Virus record (IMG/VR): IMGVR_UViG_3300044703_000139
Location: 1 to 29,398 of that record
DNA from: a virus
Strand: one strand, 5' to 3'
Length of the DNA: 29,398 nt
How positions within the stretch are numbered: the first letter of the stretch is position 1; every line of letters starts with the position of its first letter. This document shows, piece by piece, positions 1-29,398 of the stretch. The notes below the pieces were generated by a model. It made no database searches. It saw nothing but the letters and a program-made list of their open reading frames with translations, and had not been told where the DNA came from. The position numbers and the translations under genes were made by a program.

Positions 1-216
1 ATGAGCAACGACGACACGACCGTCACCATCGACCTCGGACCGCTGAATGCCCAAGTCGACCAGTACGCCATCCGGCATGGCATGACCCGCGAGGAAGCAG
101 CATTCGCGCTGGTCAAGGCAGGTCTGAACGGCGGCATCCGCAACAGCATCTCCGGCAACGTCACCGGCACCGTCGTCCAGCACGGCGGCGACGTCCACGG
201 CAACATCGCGTTCTGA
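1..216 (+). CDS. Small RHH-like protein with C-terminal RHIM/amyloid-like motif
   Basis: A 71-aa protein. Residues 6-45 (acidic start, a short beta-like stretch VTIDLG, then two predicted helices with GMTREEAA between them) resemble a ribbon-helix-helix fold. The last 24 residues switch to a Gly/Val/Asn pattern, NVTGTVVQHGGDVHGNIAF. This resembles the short 'SG-x-V-x-G-x-V-V-Q-x-x-x-I-x-G' motif widespread in actinobacterial conflict proteins, proposed to be a RHIM-like amyloid signalling sequence (BASS3 class, from memory). The role is unknown; a DNA-binding or oligomerising adaptor is an inference. The ATG is the first base of the window, so the upstream signal cannot be seen and an earlier start is possible. 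The stop is at 214-216, close to the convergent membrane-protein gene. Confidence 0.7.
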   Translation: MSNDDTTVTIDLGPLNAQVDQYAIRHGMTREEAAFALVKAGLNGGIRNSISGNVTGTVVQHGGDVHGNIAF

Positions 217-979: not shown

Positions 980-1033
980 CTAGCCGATACTCCGAGCTCG
1001 TCTCAGCCGCCGACGTTGGGGAAAGGCGCTGCC

Positions 1034-1912
1034 GTGCTTGAGCATGATGGCGCGGCCGCGCGGGAGTGGTGGCGGTGGGCGCGGATGGGAGCCGCGATCA
1101 CCGCGGACTCACCGGAAGCGGCACAGTTCGCTGGGCTGGGCGAGGGCTCTTACCTGGCGTTCCCGCAGGGCGTGCTGGAGAACCCCGGCCGGATCCGGAT
1201 CGGCGCGGGCTGCGTCGTCAACGAGCAGGTCACCCTGTCCGCCGACCTGCCGGGCGGCACCGGGACCGGCGATCCGCGGATCGTGCTCGGCGACCGGTGC
1301 GTCCTGGGCCGCGGTACCGAAATCCTCGCGCTGGGCCGGGTGGAACTGGGCGAGGACGTCTGGACCGCGTCTCGGGTCTTGATCGTGGATCACCACCATC
1401 GCCACGATCAGCCCGACGTCGCGGTGGGCCTGCAGATTCCGCTGCGGAAGAGCACGGTCACCATCGGGCGGGGCAGCGTGATCAGCACCGGCGCCACCAT
1501 CCTCGCCGGAGCCTGGATTGGGGCGTACTGCATGGTGGCTGCGGGTGCCGTCGTGCGCCCCGGGCACTACCCGAACAACAGCCTGATCGCCGGGAACCCC
1601 GCAGCCATCAAACCCTTCGGCTCCCTGCCCGTCGCGCCCGACCGCGAGCAGACCCCGCTCGACATCCCGAACATGCTGCCGCGCGAGCACCCAGACCCGA
1701 ACGTCCAGACCCGCATCAAGCGCTACCTCGAGGCGCACTCCCTCGCCGCACGAACCCCCTCCCCGGAGACCTATCGGGAGGTGGCCGATCAGGCAATGCA
1801 GTTGCAGGCCGCGCTCGGTCGGGACGACCCCGGCAATGGCGAGCTGAGTCTTGCCCTGTTCGACCGGGCGTACGAGTTCGGTCGGCAAGCATCGCTGTTT
1901 CCCCGGCCTTGA
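1034..1912 (+). CDS. Left-handed beta-helix (hexapeptide repeat) acyltransferase
   Basis: 292 aa from a GTG preceded by GGGGAAAGG seven bases upstream; a TTG at 1016 is possible but lies before that site. Residues about 50-200 hold hexapeptide repeats ([IV]-G-x-x-x-x): IRIGAGCVV, RIVLGDRCVLGRG, RVELGED, TVTIGRGSVISTGATILAG, IGAYCMVAAGAVV, closing with NSLIAGNPAAIKPF, the family hallmark. DHHHRH near residue 120 supplies candidate catalytic histidines. The family forms trimers that transfer acetyl or other acyl groups from CoA to sugars or antibiotics. A roughly 90-aa helical C-terminal extension is unusual for the family. In a phage it would be a candidate cell-surface-modifying conversion gene; the substrate cannot be read from sequence. 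Confidence 0.85.
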   Translation: MLEHDGAAAREWWRWARMGAAITADSPEAAQFAGLGEGSYLAFPQGVLENPGRIRIGAGCVVNEQVTLSADLPGGTGTGDPRIVLGDRCVLGRGTEILALGRVELGEDVWTASRVLIVDHHHRHDQPDVAVGLQIPLRKSTVTIGRGSVISTGATILAGAWIGAYCMVAAGAVVRPGHYPNNSLIAGNPAAIKPFGSLPVAPDREQTPLDIPNMLPREHPDPNVQTRIKRYLEAHSLAARTPSPETYREVADQAMQLQAALGRDDPGNGELSLALFDRAYEFGRQASLFPRP

Positions 1913-3858: not shown

Positions 3859-4200
3859 TCAGACCGCGGCCGGGGTGAGGTTGTGCGCCCGCTTGTACAG
3901 CCCCGCTGCCATGTGGAGCGGCTTGCGCAGTGCCTCGATCGCCGCCACCGCCGTTTCGTAGTCGCGGCCGGTGGAGCAGCTCATGATCTTCGATGGCGTC
4001 TCGCCGCCCAGCACCTTCTGCAGGTCGGAGATGATCTGGCTCGCGCGCAGCTTGATGGTCTCGTAGTGGCGGTCGAACTCGCTTGCCATCTCGTACAGCG
4101 CGTAGTCGACGGGGTTTTCGATGTCGAGGTCCTTGTAGGTCATTTCGATGCCGACGACTTCGGACATCAGCTTGTTGATCCGGGTCAGCTGCTCGTTCAT
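3859..4200 (-). CDS. Helical hypothetical protein
   Basis: 113 aa, almost entirely predicted helical: NEQLTRINKLMSEVVGIEMTY, YALYEMASEFDRHYETIKLR, ASQIISDLQKVLGG, YETAVAAIEALRKPLHMAAGL. The heptad-like spacing suggests a helical bundle or short coiled coil that oligomerises. The ATG has AAAGG seven bases upstream. No Cys cluster or membrane segment is present. It lies between the 57-aa gene and the 159-aa gene in the leftward operon. Function unknown. Confidence 0.7.
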   Translation of the reverse strand: MNEQLTRINKLMSEVVGIEMTYKDLDIENPVDYALYEMASEFDRHYETIKLRASQIISDLQKVLGGETPSKIMSCSTGRDYETAVAAIEALRKPLHMAAGLYKRAHNLTPAAV

Positions 4201-4245
4201 TTCTGTGCCTTTCTGGTTTCGCTTGCGCGGGGTTAGGAATGTGGT

Positions 4246-4419
4246 TCAGCGGGCGAAGTCGAGCGTGGCCTTGTAGGTGGCCGTTGCCTCGGTGACCGAC
4301 TTGGGTGCGCTGGAGTTGGTGGCGGACACGGTGATCTCGGTGCCGTTCGCGGTCACGTCGGTGATGGTGGTGATGTACTGGGAGAAGATGAAGCCGATGC
4401 GAACGGTGGTGATCTGCAT
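4246..4419 (-). CDS. 57-aa hypothetical protein
   Basis: A short gene starting MQITTVRIGFIFSQYITTIT and ending TATYKATLDFAR. The ATG has AGGAGCAGGAA directly upstream and follows an AT-rich promoter-like region. The protein is all beta-like (alternating Thr/Val/Ile: VTANGTEITVSATNSSAP), a possible small beta-sandwich. As the first gene after the 4.46-kb promoter candidate, it may be well expressed. No function is recognised. Confidence 0.65.
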   Translation of the reverse strand: MQITTVRIGFIFSQYITTITDVTANGTEITVSATNSSAPKSVTEATATYKATLDFAR

Positions 4420-4458
4420 TTCCTGCTCCTTTGTTTTTGCTTTCTTTCTGATACCTAT

Positions 4459-4487
4459 ATCTTAATGGAAAAGGACGCTATTATCCA
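4459..4487 (-). promoter_or_regulatory. Candidate leftward promoter in AT-rich gap
   Basis: On the minus strand TAAGAT (4464-4459) is a good -10. A TGGATA/GGATAA hexamer lies 16-17 bases upstream as a weak -35. TAAGAT is also the -10 of the stronger candidate at 6361-6389. The start site would be near 4452, about 33 bases before the ATG at 4419. The gap 4420-4514 is conspicuously AT-rich. Confidence 0.45.
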
Positions 4488-4514
4488 CATTTAAATGGTC
4501 GCACAGCTATTTGT

Positions 4515-4865
4515 TTATGTGGTACCCGTCCCAGTGTTTTTGCTGGTCGGCATGGACTTTCCGCCGCCGTGCAGGATGCGGTCGGCCGCTGTGAAGTCGG
4601 CGCCGCCGTTGATGCCGACGGTGGACTGTTTCACCAGCGCGTCTTCGGCTTCCAGGTATGCGGCGTCGCTGTCCTGCTCGGCGGTGTCGGCCAGGTACGA
4701 GCGGGCCTGGGCCGGGCCCTTGCCGGGTAGGTGGGTGTGCGCGAGCACGGCGGCCAGGTCGAGGACCACGTTGCGATCGAGGCCCAGCGCGCGCAGGCCC
4801 TCGGTGGTCTCGACGATGCGCGTGAGGATCAGCCCTGCGGGGCTGAACGACTGGCGGGACGTCAT
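4515..4865 (-). CDS. Hypothetical helical protein with Thr/Gly tail
   Basis: 116 aa. Residues 5-85 appear helical (SFSPAGLILTRIVETTEGLR, NVVLDLAAVLAHTHLPGKG, AQARSYLADTAEQDSDAAYL). The end is low-complexity (GGGKSMPTSKNTGTGTT). The ATG has GGAG nine bases upstream. Its final codons lie inside an AT-rich element whose sequence partly matches boxes at 6.4 and 11.3 kb. It follows the methyltransferase-like gene after 37 bases and is probably cotranscribed with it. Family not recognised. Confidence 0.7.
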   Translation of the reverse strand: MTSRQSFSPAGLILTRIVETTEGLRALGLDRNVVLDLAAVLAHTHLPGKGPAQARSYLADTAEQDSDAAYLEAEDALVKQSTVGINGGADFTAADRILHGGGKSMPTSKNTGTGTT

Positions 4866-4902
4866 GGGGTCAGTCTCCTAGTTGAGTGAGGGAATTGCCT
4901 GG

Positions 4903-6009
4903 TCAGGACTCCACGACGAGGTCGACGAGGTCCCAGAACCCGGCGGCGAGCACGTCCTTCTGCTCGGCGTCGAGGTCGATCAGCGGCACCGGCGTGACGA
5001 CGTGCGCCGCGGGCTTCGGGGCGGGCTCGGGGTCCGGCGCGGTCTCGCCGACCGGCTCCGGCTCCGGCTCGGATGCCGGCGGCGGTTCGTTGGGGGGCTG
5101 TTCCTGTGGCTCGGGCTCGGCGTCCGACGTCATCTCGTCCTGTGGCTCGGCAGGGTCGGACAGGAGCCTGAACGCCTTGAGCATGGCGGCGTCGCGGCGC
5201 AGCTGCCGGACTAGTTCGACGGTCTCGCGGCGCTCGCCGATCGCCCGGTCCCACCAGTCGTTGCGCAGGCTGTCGCCGACGCCGAGCAGCACGTTGGTGC
5301 CCAAGCCCCAGAGCACCACGTTGACGGCGCAGCAGGCGACGGCGACGTGGTCGATGTCGACGCCGACCCACAGGCACGTGGTCGGGTCGCCGCCGGTGGC
5401 GCGGACCGCTTCGGCCGCGGCCCGGAACGCGCCGCCCGTGCCGCACGTGGGCTCGTGGATCGATTCGCCTTCGCGCACGCCCAGGATGCGCGCCATCATC
5501 TCCAGCACCGGGCCCGGCGTGTAGTACTGCCCCCGGCCCTGCAACGCGCTCTTCGGGCGCAGGAGCGTCAGCACCACCCCGAGAAGATCGGTGTCGCACC
5601 GCCTGTTCGGGTCGCCGGTGAGGGAGAGCTGACCGGCCTGCAGCGCGGCGTTCGCCGCGTGCTTGGCGGCGTCGCGGGCCTGCTCGCTCATGCCGTCCTC
5701 GCGGATCCACGGCTCGGCCAGCGGCCAGATCCGGTTGATCAGGTCCGGGCGGCCGGTCATGAACCATCGCCACTGGTGGCGCATGAAGTCGGCGAACTCG
5801 GCCGGGGTGAGCTTGATCAGCGCGACGGCGACCTCGTCGCGCAGCTGGTAGGGAGGCTCGACGAACGCGAGCGCGGCGACGACGCCGGCGGGGATCTCCA
5901 GGTAGCCCGAGCCGTGGTGGCCGTACCAGGCTTCGACCACTTTCTCCCCGATCAGCTGGGCGTGCTGAGTCGAATCGCTCAGAGCGGGCCGGATGCGAAT
6001 GGCGGCCAT
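4903..6009 (-). CDS. N6-adenine DNA methyltransferase-like protein lacking motif IV
   Basis: 368 aa. Residues 158-200 (GRGQYYTPGPVLEMMARIL, then HEPTCGTGGAF) match the HsdM/N6-Mtase signature: the YTP entry motif and SAM-binding motif I (PTCGTGG, 187-193). VGVDID (215-220) is the acidic residue after beta-2 and GDSL (245-248) fits motif III. The catalytic (N/D)PP(Y/F) that should follow is absent: the sequence reads RNDWWDRAIGERRETV. It therefore probably binds SAM or DNA without methylating, or is a variant. The N-terminal 130 residues are helical; residues 283-340 form a Pro/Glu-rich linker. The ATG at 6009 has AGGGAG six bases upstream and a perfect 12-bp hairpin just before it. It may shield phage DNA or act as a decoy against host restriction (inference). 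Confidence 0.75.
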   Translation of the reverse strand: MAAIRIRPALSDSTQHAQLIGEKVVEAWYGHHGSGYLEIPAGVVAALAFVEPPYQLRDEVAVALIKLTPAEFADFMRHQWRWFMTGRPDLINRIWPLAEPWIREDGMSEQARDAAKHAANAALQAGQLSLTGDPNRRCDTDLLGVVLTLLRPKSALQGRGQYYTPGPVLEMMARILGVREGESIHEPTCGTGGAFRAAAEAVRATGGDPTTCLWVGVDIDHVAVACCAVNVVLWGLGTNVLLGVGDSLRNDWWDRAIGERRETVELVRQLRRDAAMLKAFRLLSDPAEPQDEMTSDAEPEPQEQPPNEPPPASEPEPEPVGETAPDPEPAPKPAAHVVTPVPLIDLDAEQKDVLAAGFWDLVDLVVES

Positions 6010-6035
6010 GAATGCTTTCTCCCTGCTGAAATGAG

Positions 6036-6063
6036 CCTGGCCCCGCCGGAAGGCGGGGCCAGG
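6036..6063 (-). promoter_or_regulatory. Perfect 12-bp hairpin upstream of the methyltransferase-like gene
   Basis: CCTGGCCCCGCC (6036-6047) and its exact reverse complement (6052-6063) flank a four-base loop. It sits in the 85-base gap between 6095 and 6009, about 27 bases before the ATG. No T-run follows on either strand. It could be an actinobacterial terminator, an RNA processing site or a start-associated element. Confidence 0.75.
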
Positions 6064-6094
6064 AGGTTTGGAGGGTGATCGGCGGTGGCGGTCT

Positions 6095-6310
6095 CTACGG
6101 CTTGACCACGGCCAGGACGGGGATCTTGTGGAACTCATCCCCGAGCGTCTTGTTCAGCCCGAGCCGGGAACCGTTGTCCCACTTGATGTGCGCGGTGCCG
6201 AGGTCGTCGATGAAGCCGACGGTTCCCTGGTCGCCGGGCTTGAGCAGGGTGTCGGGGTCTTCGCAGCGATCCAGCTCGACTCGGTCACCGCGGGCGTATG
6301 TTTCGGACAT
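6095..6310 (-). CDS. DUF4314-like small protein
   Basis: 71 aa. The pattern GDRVELDRCEDPDTLLKPGDQGTV...IDDLGTAHIKWDNGSRLGL matches the DUF4314 family, a small SH3-like beta-barrel of unknown role that is frequent in phage and mobile-element genomes. The core GD-RVEL, P-GD-GTV and H(I/V)-W-NGS-L are all present. The start chosen is the ATG with GGAG four bases upstream; a longer reading to 6334 lacks a site. It is the first gene after the 6.37-kb promoter candidate. Family assignment is by recall of the motif. Confidence 0.8.
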   Translation of the reverse strand: MSETYARGDRVELDRCEDPDTLLKPGDQGTVGFIDDLGTAHIKWDNGSRLGLNKTLGDEFHKIPVLAVVKP

Positions 6311-6351
6311 AGCTCTCCTGCACCTCGAATTCACTGGGGGGCCTTTTTACT

Positions 6352-6442: not shown

Positions 6443-7031
6443 ACATTCCGTAGTGGTCGCTGGTGTAGCTGATCCGGGCGCGGGTATCGACCTGGTCGTA
6501 GTCGAGGCCCAGGAGCTCGGTCAGCGAGGGCACGTCGGCGTAGAACGCGGCCAGCACGCTGGCCGGCGGGTCGGCGGCGGTGCCGCACATCTGGGCGTAG
6601 GCGACGAGTCCGCGCGCGGCGGTTCCGGCCCGGCGGGCGTTCATGTCCGGGCCGCAGTCGTCGATCTGGCTGCTGTAGGGGTTCGAGACGTGGCTCAGGA
6701 ACCACTCCACGTGCTCGGCGAGGTCGGCGACGGAGGTCATCACCGCGGGCGACGAGAGCACGTCGGGCGGCTCGGGCGCGGGTTCGTCGTCGAGCGGTTC
6801 TTCCTTGCGGTCGCGGCGGTTGATCTCGGCGAAGTCGATGCCGAGGGCGTCGACGAGGTGGCGCAGGTTGCACAGCAGGTCGGCGAGCTGTTCGACGTTG
6901 CTGTCGTGGTCGGGGGTGTCGGTGTCCTGCCCGGTGGCGACGGCGAACGCCGTCATCGCGGCCGCCACCCGCGCCGCGCGGAGCACGGTGTTGTCGCTGA
7001 AGCGCTGGTGCCCGGTGGCTGAAGTGGTCAT
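6435..7031 (-). CDS. Hypothetical protein, two helical domains
   Basis: 198 aa. The ATG overlaps the stop of the upstream gene (ATGA), indicating coupled translation. Residues 10-70 are helical (LRAARVAAAMTAFAVATG, NVEQLADLLCNLRHLVDALG). An acidic Pro-rich linker lies at about 75-90. A second helical domain follows (SVADLAEHVEWFLSHVSN, GTAARGLVAYAQMCG, SLTELLGLDYDQVDTRARI). The first helical pair vaguely recalls all-alpha NTP-pyrophosphohydrolase folds, but the metal-binding Glu/Asp set is not visible. Function unknown. Confidence 0.7.
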   Translation of the reverse strand: MTTSATGHQRFSDNTVLRAARVAAAMTAFAVATGQDTDTPDHDSNVEQLADLLCNLRHLVDALGIDFAEINRRDRKEEPLDDEPAPEPPDVLSSPAVMTSVADLAEHVEWFLSHVSNPYSSQIDDCGPDMNARRAGTAARGLVAYAQMCGTAADPPASVLAAFYADVPSLTELLGLDYDQVDTRARISYTSDHYGMCE

Positions 7032-25995: not shown

Positions 25996-26306
25996 AGCTC
26001 ACCGGCCCCGTCGGCTCCCTCAACCCCGCCCGCGAGGCGGCCCGCCTCGCCGAGCGCGCGGCCGCGACGCCACCGCGGGTCACCGGCACGATCGCGCCCG
26101 CCCCGAACCCGAGCCAGCCCGACCCGGGCACCGCCGGACCGGCGGCCGCGCGAGCCGCCCGCACCACCGCGGCCGCGCCCGAGCCTGGCCCGGTCGCGCC
26201 GGGCTGGCGCCTCGACGTCGACCCGGACGGTTCCCTGGTCGCCGTCCACGACCCCACCGACACCCGCGTGGTCATCGCCACGCCCAACCCGGAAAACGGA
26301 GGTTGA
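25992..26306 (+). CDS. Small Ala/Pro-rich tail-module protein
   Basis: 104 aa; the ATG overlaps the hub gene's stop (ATGA). The N-terminal 30 residues form a basic helix (LNPAREAARLAERAAATPPR). Residues 33-70 are an Ala/Pro linker (APAPNPSQPDPGTAGPAAAR). The C-terminus is a small beta motif (GWRLDVDPDGSLVAVHDPTD, TRVVIATPNPENGG) resembling repeats seen in tail accessory proteins. It probably joins the hub to the next tip protein; this is inferred from position only. Confidence 0.7.
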   Translation: MKLTGPVGSLNPAREAARLAERAAATPPRVTGTIAPAPNPSQPDPGTAGPAAARAARTTAAAPEPGPVAPGWRLDVDPDGSLVAVHDPTDTRVVIATPNPENGG

Positions 26307-26308
26307 CC

Positions 26309-28261
26309 ATGGGCCGCTGCGGCTGCACCGAGGCCTGCGCCTGCCTGATCACGCCCGGTCTCGGCATCGACGTCGACGGCACCGGCGACGCGAACAACCC
26401 GTACAAGATCAGCTTCGACCCGACCAACGGCGGCGTCATCGGCCGCGGGCTTACCTGGTCCGGCCAGACGCTCTCGACGAACCTCAAGCCCGGCGGTGGC
26501 CTCGAGTTCGACCCGGTCACCGGGGCCATGCTCGTCACCGGCGGCGGCGACCCGGGCGGCGGCGGGATCGGAGCGACGGTGAAGTCGCTGGAGACGCTGA
26601 CCGTGGACGTCATCGGCGGCTCGCTCGGCGCGGGCTTCATGCACAAACCACCCGACCTGCTGTCGAGCTACATCTACGGCCAGACCGTCGGCCTCGACTT
26701 CCTCCAGGTCCCGGTCCGGTTCCTCAGCGACGGGACACCGGTGGTGTCGTTCTACGAGACCCTGACCAACGTCGAGGGCCTCAACGACATCGCCTCCAGA
26801 CCCATTGCCGACCAGCACGTCCAGGACCAGGACCTGTCGCGGTGGCGCACCGGCAACCTCAAGCCCGGCGCGTTCATGCTCCCGCAGAAGCCGACCAACG
26901 TCACCGACCCCATCGCGGGCTGGTTCGGCTACCTCGAACCCGGCCAGTACGGGCTCACCACCCTCGCCGACGTTCTGCGTGCCGTTGGCAACAAGGTCGT
27001 CCTGCTGCTCAATCTCACCTTCCCGGCGGTCAACGGCAGCGGCGCGTTCGTCCACGCGACGCCGGCCTGGCGCACCGAGCTGTTCATCCGACGCACCATC
27101 GACACCATCACCTCGTTCGGCGCCACCGGCAGCGTCATCGTCACCACCGACCAGCTGTTCATCCCGCCCAACAGCGGCACCGCGCCGACCGACGTCCTCA
27201 AGCGGTTCAGCGACAACGCCATGGTCGTCGGCCCGTACATGGCGAACCAGGCGATGATCGACGCCTACCCGCCGGACGACCCTACGAAGTGGCAACCGAC
27301 GTGGACCTGGGTGTTCGCGTCCTGGCGGGCACCGCGCGCCAACCTGGCGAAGTACGTCGCCGCGAAGCTGCACACCATCCTGTTCGTCGTCTCCCGCCAC
27401 TACCTGCGCTCGGCGATCGTGCACAACTCCGCGCAGGTGCCCGGCGCGAACGGCGTCGGCGCGAAAGGCGTGATCTCGGCCGATCCCGAGTACTACGGCG
27501 GCATCGCCTCGCGCGGCGCGCTCGTCGGCTGGAAGTACCGCAAATACCACGGCGACTGGCAATACGGCACCGTCCACCACGGACTTCTGCCACCCGGCGA
27601 CGACACCCTGCCCAACGTCAAACCGTCCATCCGCGGCTGGTCCTACTCCACCTACGACGCCTGCTGGATGGGATCGCAGTCCATCATCGAATCCGGCTCG
27701 AACACCGCCTGGGTACTGCACGGCGAGCTGTCGCCGTTCCCGGACACGAACAGCTTCAGCCTCGACTTCGGACCCGGCTTCGGGATGACCTCACCCGAGC
27801 CCTACGGCTGGATGGCACTCGCGTTCGCCGTGCCCACCGACCACGGCTTCAAGGACCCGCCCGGCGCCGTCGCACCGGGGGACCCGCTCTACGCGCTGGA
27901 CTCCGGCTACGTGATGTTGTTCGACACCAACGGATTCGCCTTCCTCTGGGCCTTCGACAAGGGCGTGCAGACGACGATCGGCGGCGGCAAGAACGTCATC
28001 GGCGGCGACCCGGCGGCCGGGGCGGTGTACTGGTACCGCATCGGGGTGAATCCCAACGGCATCAAGGTCACCCAGCTCACCGGCAACGGCCAGCTCGGCA
28101 CGGTGCTGTGGGAGGTCAAGACGGACCTGGCCAAGCAATTTCGGGGCCAGTACTGCTATCTGGGCCGCCTGGGCAAGAACATCACCGCGTGGAACGGCTA
28201 TACCGAGCCGATTTCGCACCTGCCCGGCGGCGGTTTCCCGCCCAACGGCCCCGTGGCCTGA
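26309..28261 (+). CDS. Tail-tip protein with degenerate GDPD-like domain
   Basis: 650 aa from an ATG with GGAGG six bases upstream; a TTG at 26303 is less likely. The N-terminus (CGCTEACACLITPGLGIDVD, GTGDANNPYKISF) is a short tail-attachment segment followed by Gly-rich linkers. Residues about 95-370 resemble a glycerophosphodiester phosphodiesterase TIM barrel: GLDFLQVPVRFLSDGTPVVS fits G-D-hE-D-V-T-DG-PVV-HD, YGLTTLADVLRAVGNKVVLL the TLxE strand, and VIVTTDQLF later strands. The catalytic HRG, E-x-D and HD residues are missing. Residues about 450-640 (LHGELSPFPDTNSFSLDFGP, GYVMLFDTNGFAFLWAFDKG) look like a lectin jelly roll. Likely a receptor-binding protein for a cell-wall polymer (inference). 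Confidence 0.75.
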   Translation: MGRCGCTEACACLITPGLGIDVDGTGDANNPYKISFDPTNGGVIGRGLTWSGQTLSTNLKPGGGLEFDPVTGAMLVTGGGDPGGGGIGATVKSLETLTVDVIGGSLGAGFMHKPPDLLSSYIYGQTVGLDFLQVPVRFLSDGTPVVSFYETLTNVEGLNDIASRPIADQHVQDQDLSRWRTGNLKPGAFMLPQKPTNVTDPIAGWFGYLEPGQYGLTTLADVLRAVGNKVVLLLNLTFPAVNGSGAFVHATPAWRTELFIRRTIDTITSFGATGSVIVTTDQLFIPPNSGTAPTDVLKRFSDNAMVVGPYMANQAMIDAYPPDDPTKWQPTWTWVFASWRAPRANLAKYVAAKLHTILFVVSRHYLRSAIVHNSAQVPGANGVGAKGVISADPEYYGGIASRGALVGWKYRKYHGDWQYGTVHHGLLPPGDDTLPNVKPSIRGWSYSTYDACWMGSQSIIESGSNTAWVLHGELSPFPDTNSFSLDFGPGFGMTSPEPYGWMALAFAVPTDHGFKDPPGAVAPGDPLYALDSGYVMLFDTNGFAFLWAFDKGVQTTIGGGKNVIGGDPAAGAVYWYRIGVNPNGIKVTQLTGNGQLGTVLWEVKTDLAKQFRGQYCYLGRLGKNITAWNGYTEPISHLPGGGFPPNGPVA

Positions 28262-29008: not shown

Positions 29009-29398
29009 ATGACGGCGCGAACAGAACCGGCTCACCAGCCCGGCGACCAGCCGGCCGAAGAGCGGTGCGAGCGCTGCGAACTGCTGATCGGCGCGGGCTG
29101 CGCCTGCCACGTTCCGCAGGCCCGGCCCGGCCAGCGCTTCCTCCGGCTCGACAACTGGGGCCCGTTCGCGCCGGACACCATCCTGATCTCCCCAGGCGGC
29201 TACGCGCACCTGCCCGGAGCCTGTGGTCACCTCAGCGAGTCCGAGGTGACCGAGCCGGAATGGGGCTGGATCACCGCGCCGGAGCCGACGTTGTGGAGCC
29301 AGATCGGCGCGCAGAAGCCCGCGGTGGCCACCGACGGCAACACCGCGCGCACCGCCACCCGACGGTGCCAGGGCTGCGAACAGGCCGTGACGACCTAG
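29009..29398 (+). CDS. Cys-containing hypothetical protein
   Basis: 129 aa, ending on the last base of the window with its own TAG. The ATG has GAGG six bases upstream. An N-terminal Cys cluster (ERCERCELLIGAGCACHVPQ) and a late pair (RRCQGCEQAVTT) could form one zinc site between the ends. The centre (RFLRLDNWGPFAPDTILISP, GGYAHLPGACGHLSESEVTE) is mixed. It follows the tail operon after a 145-base gap and may begin a new transcription unit. Function unknown. Confidence 0.7.
   Translation: MTARTEPAHQPGDQPAEERCERCELLIGAGCACHVPQARPGQRFLRLDNWGPFAPDTILISPGGYAHLPGACGHLSESEVTEPEWGWITAPEPTLWSQIGAQKPAVATDGNTARTATRRCQGCEQAVTT

Follow-up and report, generated by a model that had tools for sequence, protein, structure and literature searches.

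A putative ribbon-helix-helix-like protein with a BASS2-like C-terminal motif at the end of a virus record

Amyloid signalling from bacterial NLRs to killer proteins is known mainly from bioinformatics and is regarded as an affair of the host, and the BASS families of bacterial amyloid signalling sequences were reportedly set out by Dyrka et al. in 2020. What, then, is a motif of this kind doing on a 71-residue protein of a virus record, and why is it joined to a head that looks as if it could bind DNA? The question is raised by the IMG/VR virus record IMGVR_UViG_3300044703_000139, the whole 29,398 bases of which were analysed and are referred to here as the window. It matters because, if so small a protein of mobile elements bore the tag of the host proteins on a DNA-binding-like head, this would show that such elements tap or jam the route, in the manner of the RHIM decoys of animal viruses, and at 71 residues the protein is a small enough handle for the question to be put to experiment. 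The proposed role of BASS motifs is to transmit an amyloid fold, which goes from an NLR N-terminus to an effector C-terminus (PMC7889193).

The gene lies at 1..216 on the plus strand, running from an ATG start to a TGA stop at 214-216, and its product is MSNDDTTVTIDLGPLNAQVDQYAIRHGMTREEAAFALVKAGLNGGIRNSISGNVTGTVVQHGGDVHGNIAF. A sequence-only reading had taken this ORF to encode a protein of 71 residues, and that it is a real gene is borne out because a Prauserella plasmid protein aligns with it nearly throughout in the same frame. This protein, WP_091810725.1 (MSTDHSDTDTVTVNLGPWVADVDRYATREGLSREAAVLALIRDALTTPRTNTVTGSVGGNVVQGRDIQGGLSL), is encoded on pPmarDSM45268, the complete 134-kb plasmid of Prauserella marina DSM 45268, and was the sole relative found by tblastn in 72,556 plasmids (residues 3-71, 43.5% identity, E 5e-10). 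Residues identical in the two proteins fall in the head (TVT, LGP and VD.YA.R.G..RE.A) as well as in the tail (N, G.V.G.VVQ, G.D and G), such that the head is conserved to the same degree as the tail. Proteins combining the head with the tail number two so far. Searches of 50,697 phage records, of IMG/VR by protein or alignment, and of genome contigs in two scans that did not reach the chromosomes of the likely host family, yielded no relative, whilst every match of four DNA patterns to IMG/VR fell inside an unrelated ORF and revealed no other phage with such a tail. Neither of the two proteins matches the PADLOC defence library, and a sequence search of solved structures gave nothing relevant.

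The tail, residues 48-71 (142..213, plus strand), reads NSISGNVTGTVVQHGGDVHGNIAF and runs directly into the stop codon; within it AlphaFold2 predicts, with low confidence, strands at residues 56-61 and 64-69. Where else does such a tail occur? A profile of the window and Prauserella tails, searched against large actinomycete plasmids (2.8 Mb), retrieved, at E 0.0018, a TIR protein (PF13676, E 2.1e-7) from Streptomyces sp. BHT-5-2 with a tail that reads TNSIGDVGGTVVQGRDFTGDVGGTVV. A STAND-type NTPase is encoded by a gene that overlaps the TIR gene, and a second short motif, HTGxGxIY, is common to both products. A three-row tail profile then matched, if weakly (E 0.21), an NB-ARC NLR on the same BHT-5-2 record, in which NTIGGSAQVTGPTLQSREVHGDVHLH stands directly ahead of the NB-ARC domain (PF00931, E 1.7e-7). 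Homologues of this NLR are present in 182 actinomycete plasmid records, and in the ten loci fetched the motif sits at or near the NLR N-termini, as in NEISGSAWLSGLVVQARDVHGGLHHH and NTISGGTLNGPSVQARRITGGVHFH. In Nocardia sp. NBC_01377 the gene of an NLR carrying SHLSGSAADVVQARDVHGGIHFH (3923-6334) precedes, on the same strand, that of a 111-aa protein (6507-6842), which matches no Pfam model, which we read as BELL-like from its size and layout, and which terminates in NNQISGTVSGNALQARDIQGGINF-stop. The window tail agrees in pattern and in terminal position with that of this Nocardia protein, both ending F-stop, and further BELL-like proteins with the motif near the C-terminus are found on two Streptomyces plasmids.

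Several other arrangements were seen at these loci. The BHT-5-2 TIR protein (L048:4542-7282, NZ_CP081497.1) carries several different short amyloid-like motifs in series, and its STAND partner has the matching HTGxGxIY at its N-terminus. Tandem pairs of NLRs with overlapping genes, both members bearing N-terminal BASS2-like motifs, recur in Streptomyces plasmids (L061, L062, L063 and L065). On a plasmid of Kitasatospora cathayae (L067:3308-6352) an NLR has DUF6879 fused ahead of the motif and NB-ARC domain, with a small gene immediately upstream.

How far does the likeness of the window tail to these motifs go beyond coincidence? The motif profile search that had been suggested for the tail did give a match, to a home-made NLR/BELL profile with the HMMER filters switched off. 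This profile, of 11 motifs, left out the window, the Prauserella protein and two motifs that had been found with window-based profiles, and it scores the window tail at 18.2 bits, the whole window protein at 15.2 and the Prauserella tail at 27.8; not one of 20,000 shuffles of either tail reached the observed score. Across the 8,732 ORFs of all loci, those above 9 bits are NLR, BELL-like and TIR proteins together with the two head-plus-tail proteins, of which the window protein ranks just below the NLR and BELL-like matches; among unrelated ORFs the highest score is 8.9 bits. With profiles composed in other ways, all home-made, lacking the window sequences and read by unfiltered HMMER, the window protein scores 16.0 bits (all motifs) and 15.4 (another grouping), in both cases with 0/20,000 shuffles, and 13.8 with NLR motifs only, a score reached by 1/20,000; a BELL-like-only profile gives a weaker 10.3 bits, which 10/20,000 shuffles reach. 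The Prauserella relative has 21-30 bits across the motif profiles. The test is not wholly independent because the NLR family was chosen for its likeness to the window tail; the NB-ARC region then served to gather the related NLRs, and adjacency led to the BELL-like gene of Nocardia. The window tail is also a divergent copy, with VVQHGGDV against VVQARDI and thus one inserted residue, and under default HMMER filters a 13-row motif profile finds no match in the window and does not report the protein, a miss that is due to the speed filters of the program. Nevertheless, at the level of sequence the likeness to the NLR and BELL-like motifs is confirmed to be more than chance.

These figures bear directly on the explanation that the tail is a fortuitous likeness, or a common beta-hairpin in a regulator or antitoxin of RHH type, and not an amyloid motif at all. 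Such an explanation would draw on the Gly/Val-rich, low-complexity character of the tail, on its being missed by the default filters and on the ten shuffles that equal it against the BELL-only profile. The other profiles, with 0-1 shuffles in 20,000, the 21-30 bits of the Prauserella protein, the 8.9 bits of the best unrelated ORF and the fact that the tail sufficed to pull out an NLR and a TIR effector all argue against it, and we consider it decidedly improbable.

If the tail belongs to an amyloid family, which one is it? The sequence-only reading described a C-terminal bacterial amyloid motif related to RHIM; a BASS-type tail in the position found on effectors is what is seen, but the RHIM-related label does not suit it, since VVQHG is nearer to BASS2. 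The RHIM-related bacterial motif is BASS3, of which a Frankia example reads GVQVGDGNVQINRF (PMC8086366). BASS3, RHIM and the fungal PP motif share with the window tail a short hydrophobic-Q-x-G core that is used between immune receptor and effector. However, the tetrad of RHIM and BASS3 is (I/V)Q(I/V/L)G, whereas the window core is V-V-Q-H-G, with a histidine at the third tetrad position, and GVQVGDGNVQINRF is laid out differently; the RHIM/BASS3 label was accordingly rejected. The BASS2 family has been described in PMC7889193, PMC8086366 and PMC9815663; with 329 sequences it is the largest of the BASS families (PMC8086366), and 'ARD', a triplet present in many relatives of the window motif, has been named as one of its features (PMC9815663). 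From its motif features, the NLR examples and the home-made profiles the window motif looks BASS2-like, a label that follows from the broken RHIM tetrad, from the 'ARD' typical of BASS2 and from the NLRs. With BASS2 it shares the Gly/Val motif N-[STQE]-[IV]-[ST]-G-x(2-5)-G-x-[VAL]-[VIL]-Q-[AG]-[RG]-[DS]-[IVF]-x-G-[GDN]-[IVL], its place at the very end of the protein, where effectors also carry it, and the occurrence of the same motif on actinomycete NLR N-termini. It differs in the one-residue insertion in the core, in having no neighbouring NLR in view, the left flank being outside the record, and in a head that is RHH-like and not BELL, TIR or CHAT. This head is shorter than in the BELL-like examples and matches no Pfam model.

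What kind of domain is the head? By eye, residues 7-43 have a strand-helix-helix layout, so that the DNA-binding domain of ribbon-helix-helix (RHH) type proposed earlier is plausible in its layout, although Pfam is empty and RHH_1 is silent. The putative beta-strand TVTIDL (residues 7-12; 19..36, plus strand) falls in TVT[IV][DN]LG, which is kept in both relatives, but it is not built in the AlphaFold monomer. The AlphaFold2 single-sequence model, with a mean pLDDT of 59.5 for the 71 residues, predicts with fair confidence helix 1 at residues 13-26 (37..78, plus strand; pLDDT about 63-82) and helix 2 at residues 30-43 (88..129, plus strand; pLDDT about 71), which stand in RHH spacing. A Pfam scan of the protein found no match up to E 10, neither it nor its Prauserella relative matches RHH profiles, and RHH_1 returned nothing from the window, 14 control genomes being positive, and no RHH sequences from six actinomycete plasmids. 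A PHROG repressor family aligns with residues 15-45 (E 0.04). The weak rows of a Foldseek search include the RHH proteins VapB, TacA2 and CdbA at non-significant E values above 0.8, and in VIA-align CopG and MazE-mt10 align in register at a Z of 2.1-2.3, which is not significant and is exceeded by HU proteins. A ribbon-helix-helix-like fold is thus no more than the best guess. The likeness to RHH repressors and antitoxins of the CopG/Arc type lies in a strand-helix-helix layout of about 45 aa, with CopG aligned over residues 9-47; the differences lie in the missing RHH profile match, in the Z of only 2.1-2.3 and in an amyloid-type tail where the CopG/Arc type has a toxin-binding one. A toxin-antitoxin interpretation was rejected, as there is no conserved neighbour and the next gene of the window is on the other strand.

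Can the partner of the motif be found nearby? Of the two things that were to be looked for, a match to an amyloid motif profile and a partner gene bearing the motif, the former is present and the latter is not in sight. There is no second copy of the motif in the window; the complete Prauserella plasmid has neither a second copy nor an NLR partner, and WP_091810725.1 has no NLR neighbour. No gene neighbourhood is conserved between window and plasmid, the head-plus-tail gene being their only full-length gene match, accompanied by a single short, weak one. Upstream of the Prauserella gene, a look for operator-like repeats gave just a two-copy 13-nt repeat, likely due to chance.

The ends of the record are relevant here. 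Base 1 is the A of the ATG of the gene, and base 29398 closes the TAG codon with which ORF 29009..29398 ends. Prophage callers cut at predicted gene limits, and because both ends coincide with gene boundaries the record was probably taken in this way from a longer contig with a prophage as its source. The left flank is therefore absent and any NLR upstream of the gene is out of view; that one was cut off there is possible. The description of the gene as lying on phage DNA holds for the right part of the window, which clearly belongs to a phage, with a tail assembly chaperone and with tape measure and minor tail proteins, but is uncertain for the outermost gene of a record cut at gene boundaries, and the gene may sit on the host side of a prophage border. 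The window ORFs scanned included tail genes but neither a terminase nor a portal, capsid or integrase gene.

It is in this setting that the protein might be the effector half of an NLR operon severed at the record boundary, with the RHH-like protein as the output, for instance a transcription factor. The C-terminal motif and the expected gene order would agree with the Nocardia locus, where NLR and BELL-like genes follow each other on one strand; the window begins exactly at the ATG, and the GC of the gene, 0.639, is the lowest among the genes measured. Against this stands the Prauserella copy, which is not flanked by an NLR and whose entire plasmid shows the motif nowhere else; we regard this explanation as rather unlikely.

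Action in trans on chromosomal NLRs is favoured, because no motif partner is present in the window or on the complete Prauserella plasmid. The interpretation that we put forward, tentatively and at somewhat under even confidence, is that of a mobile-element protein whose RHH-like head and BASS2-like tail would act in trans on NLR signalling. That grade applies to this general statement and not to the regulator detail alone; a switchable regulator is placed first, with low confidence, because both halves are conserved and the gene is an orphan on mobile DNA. The head would bind DNA, probably as a dimer, and the motif at the extreme C-terminus would allow joint assembly in trans with those NB-ARC NLRs of actinomycetes whose N-termini carry it too. 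A host NLR, once triggered, would form an amyloid seed with its N-terminal motif, and this seed would template the tail of the element's protein; such templating could alter the DNA-binding protein or take it off its operator, by which means the element would read the alarm of the host.

The same motif could also serve to silence the alarm. As a decoy, the protein would cap the NLR/BELL assemblies of the host or sequester them, blocking the suicide response, with a head that does nothing but dimerise. The class of motif, the lack of a recognised effector domain, the mobile DNA and a complete plasmid without a partner are all consistent with this, and there is precedent in the RHIM decoys VZV ORF20 and MCMV M45 (PMC7375649), which are likewise viral or mobile-element proteins bearing an amyloid signalling motif of the host. 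These decoys are, however, larger proteins of mammalian viruses with RHIM proper, and inhibition of cell death has been shown for them, whereas for the window protein such a role is hypothetical. Furthermore, a decoy would render a DNA-binding-like head superfluous, but conservation is equal in head and tail, and no other IMG/VR phage with such a tail was found. A decoy is unlikely on balance, although it and the half of a cut system, the two ideas with which the sequence-only reading began, are both possible.

A DNA-sensing adaptor in the style of ZBP1 would turn the direction of the signal around: clustering on DNA would concentrate the tail, nucleate amyloid and trigger NLR/BELL killing. 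The domain logic of a DNA-binding-like head with an amyloid motif speaks for it, as ZBP1 in concept also joins a nucleic-acid-binding domain to an amyloid motif, and is described as sensing viral nucleic acid and as entering into amyloid together with a viral RHIM (PMC7375649). But ZBP1 is mammalian and without homology to the window protein, so the comparison is by analogy only, DNA binding is putative, and the gene is an orphan on mobile DNA outside a defence locus; such an adaptor is very improbable. Regulator, decoy, operon output and adaptor are all compatible with the present data, which do not separate them.

The motif family and its NLR, BELL and TIR settings are already known, but no RHH-like carrier of a BASS motif on mobile elements was found in the open-access papers searched. 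The second copy, on the Prauserella plasmid, suggests that bacterial NLR amyloid signalling is accessible to mobile DNA. It is possible, if doubtful, that this is an actinomycete phage or plasmid DNA-binding protein with an amyloid tail templated by host NLRs, the immune signal setting, or being jammed by, the transcription of the element. Were this so, it would be the first link from NLR amyloid signalling to a transcription switch, and the first interceptor of the NLR amyloid pathway from a mobile element in bacteria.

Three other ORFs of the window deserve mention. Near the left end, 1016-1912 (plus strand) encodes a hexapeptide-repeat acyltransferase (PF00132, E 3.4e-11) with relatives of about 41% identity in a Nonomuraea genome and on a Streptomyces megaplasmid, and may be host DNA. 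Beyond the tail genes, a 652-aa ORF at 26303-28261 (plus strand) is without a PHROG or Pfam match and has a stretch that by eye resembles glycerophosphodiester phosphodiesterases. On the minus strand, 4903-6138 encodes an N6 DNA methylase domain (PF02384, E 4.4e-15), the C-terminal region of this ORF being acidic and Pro/Glu-rich.
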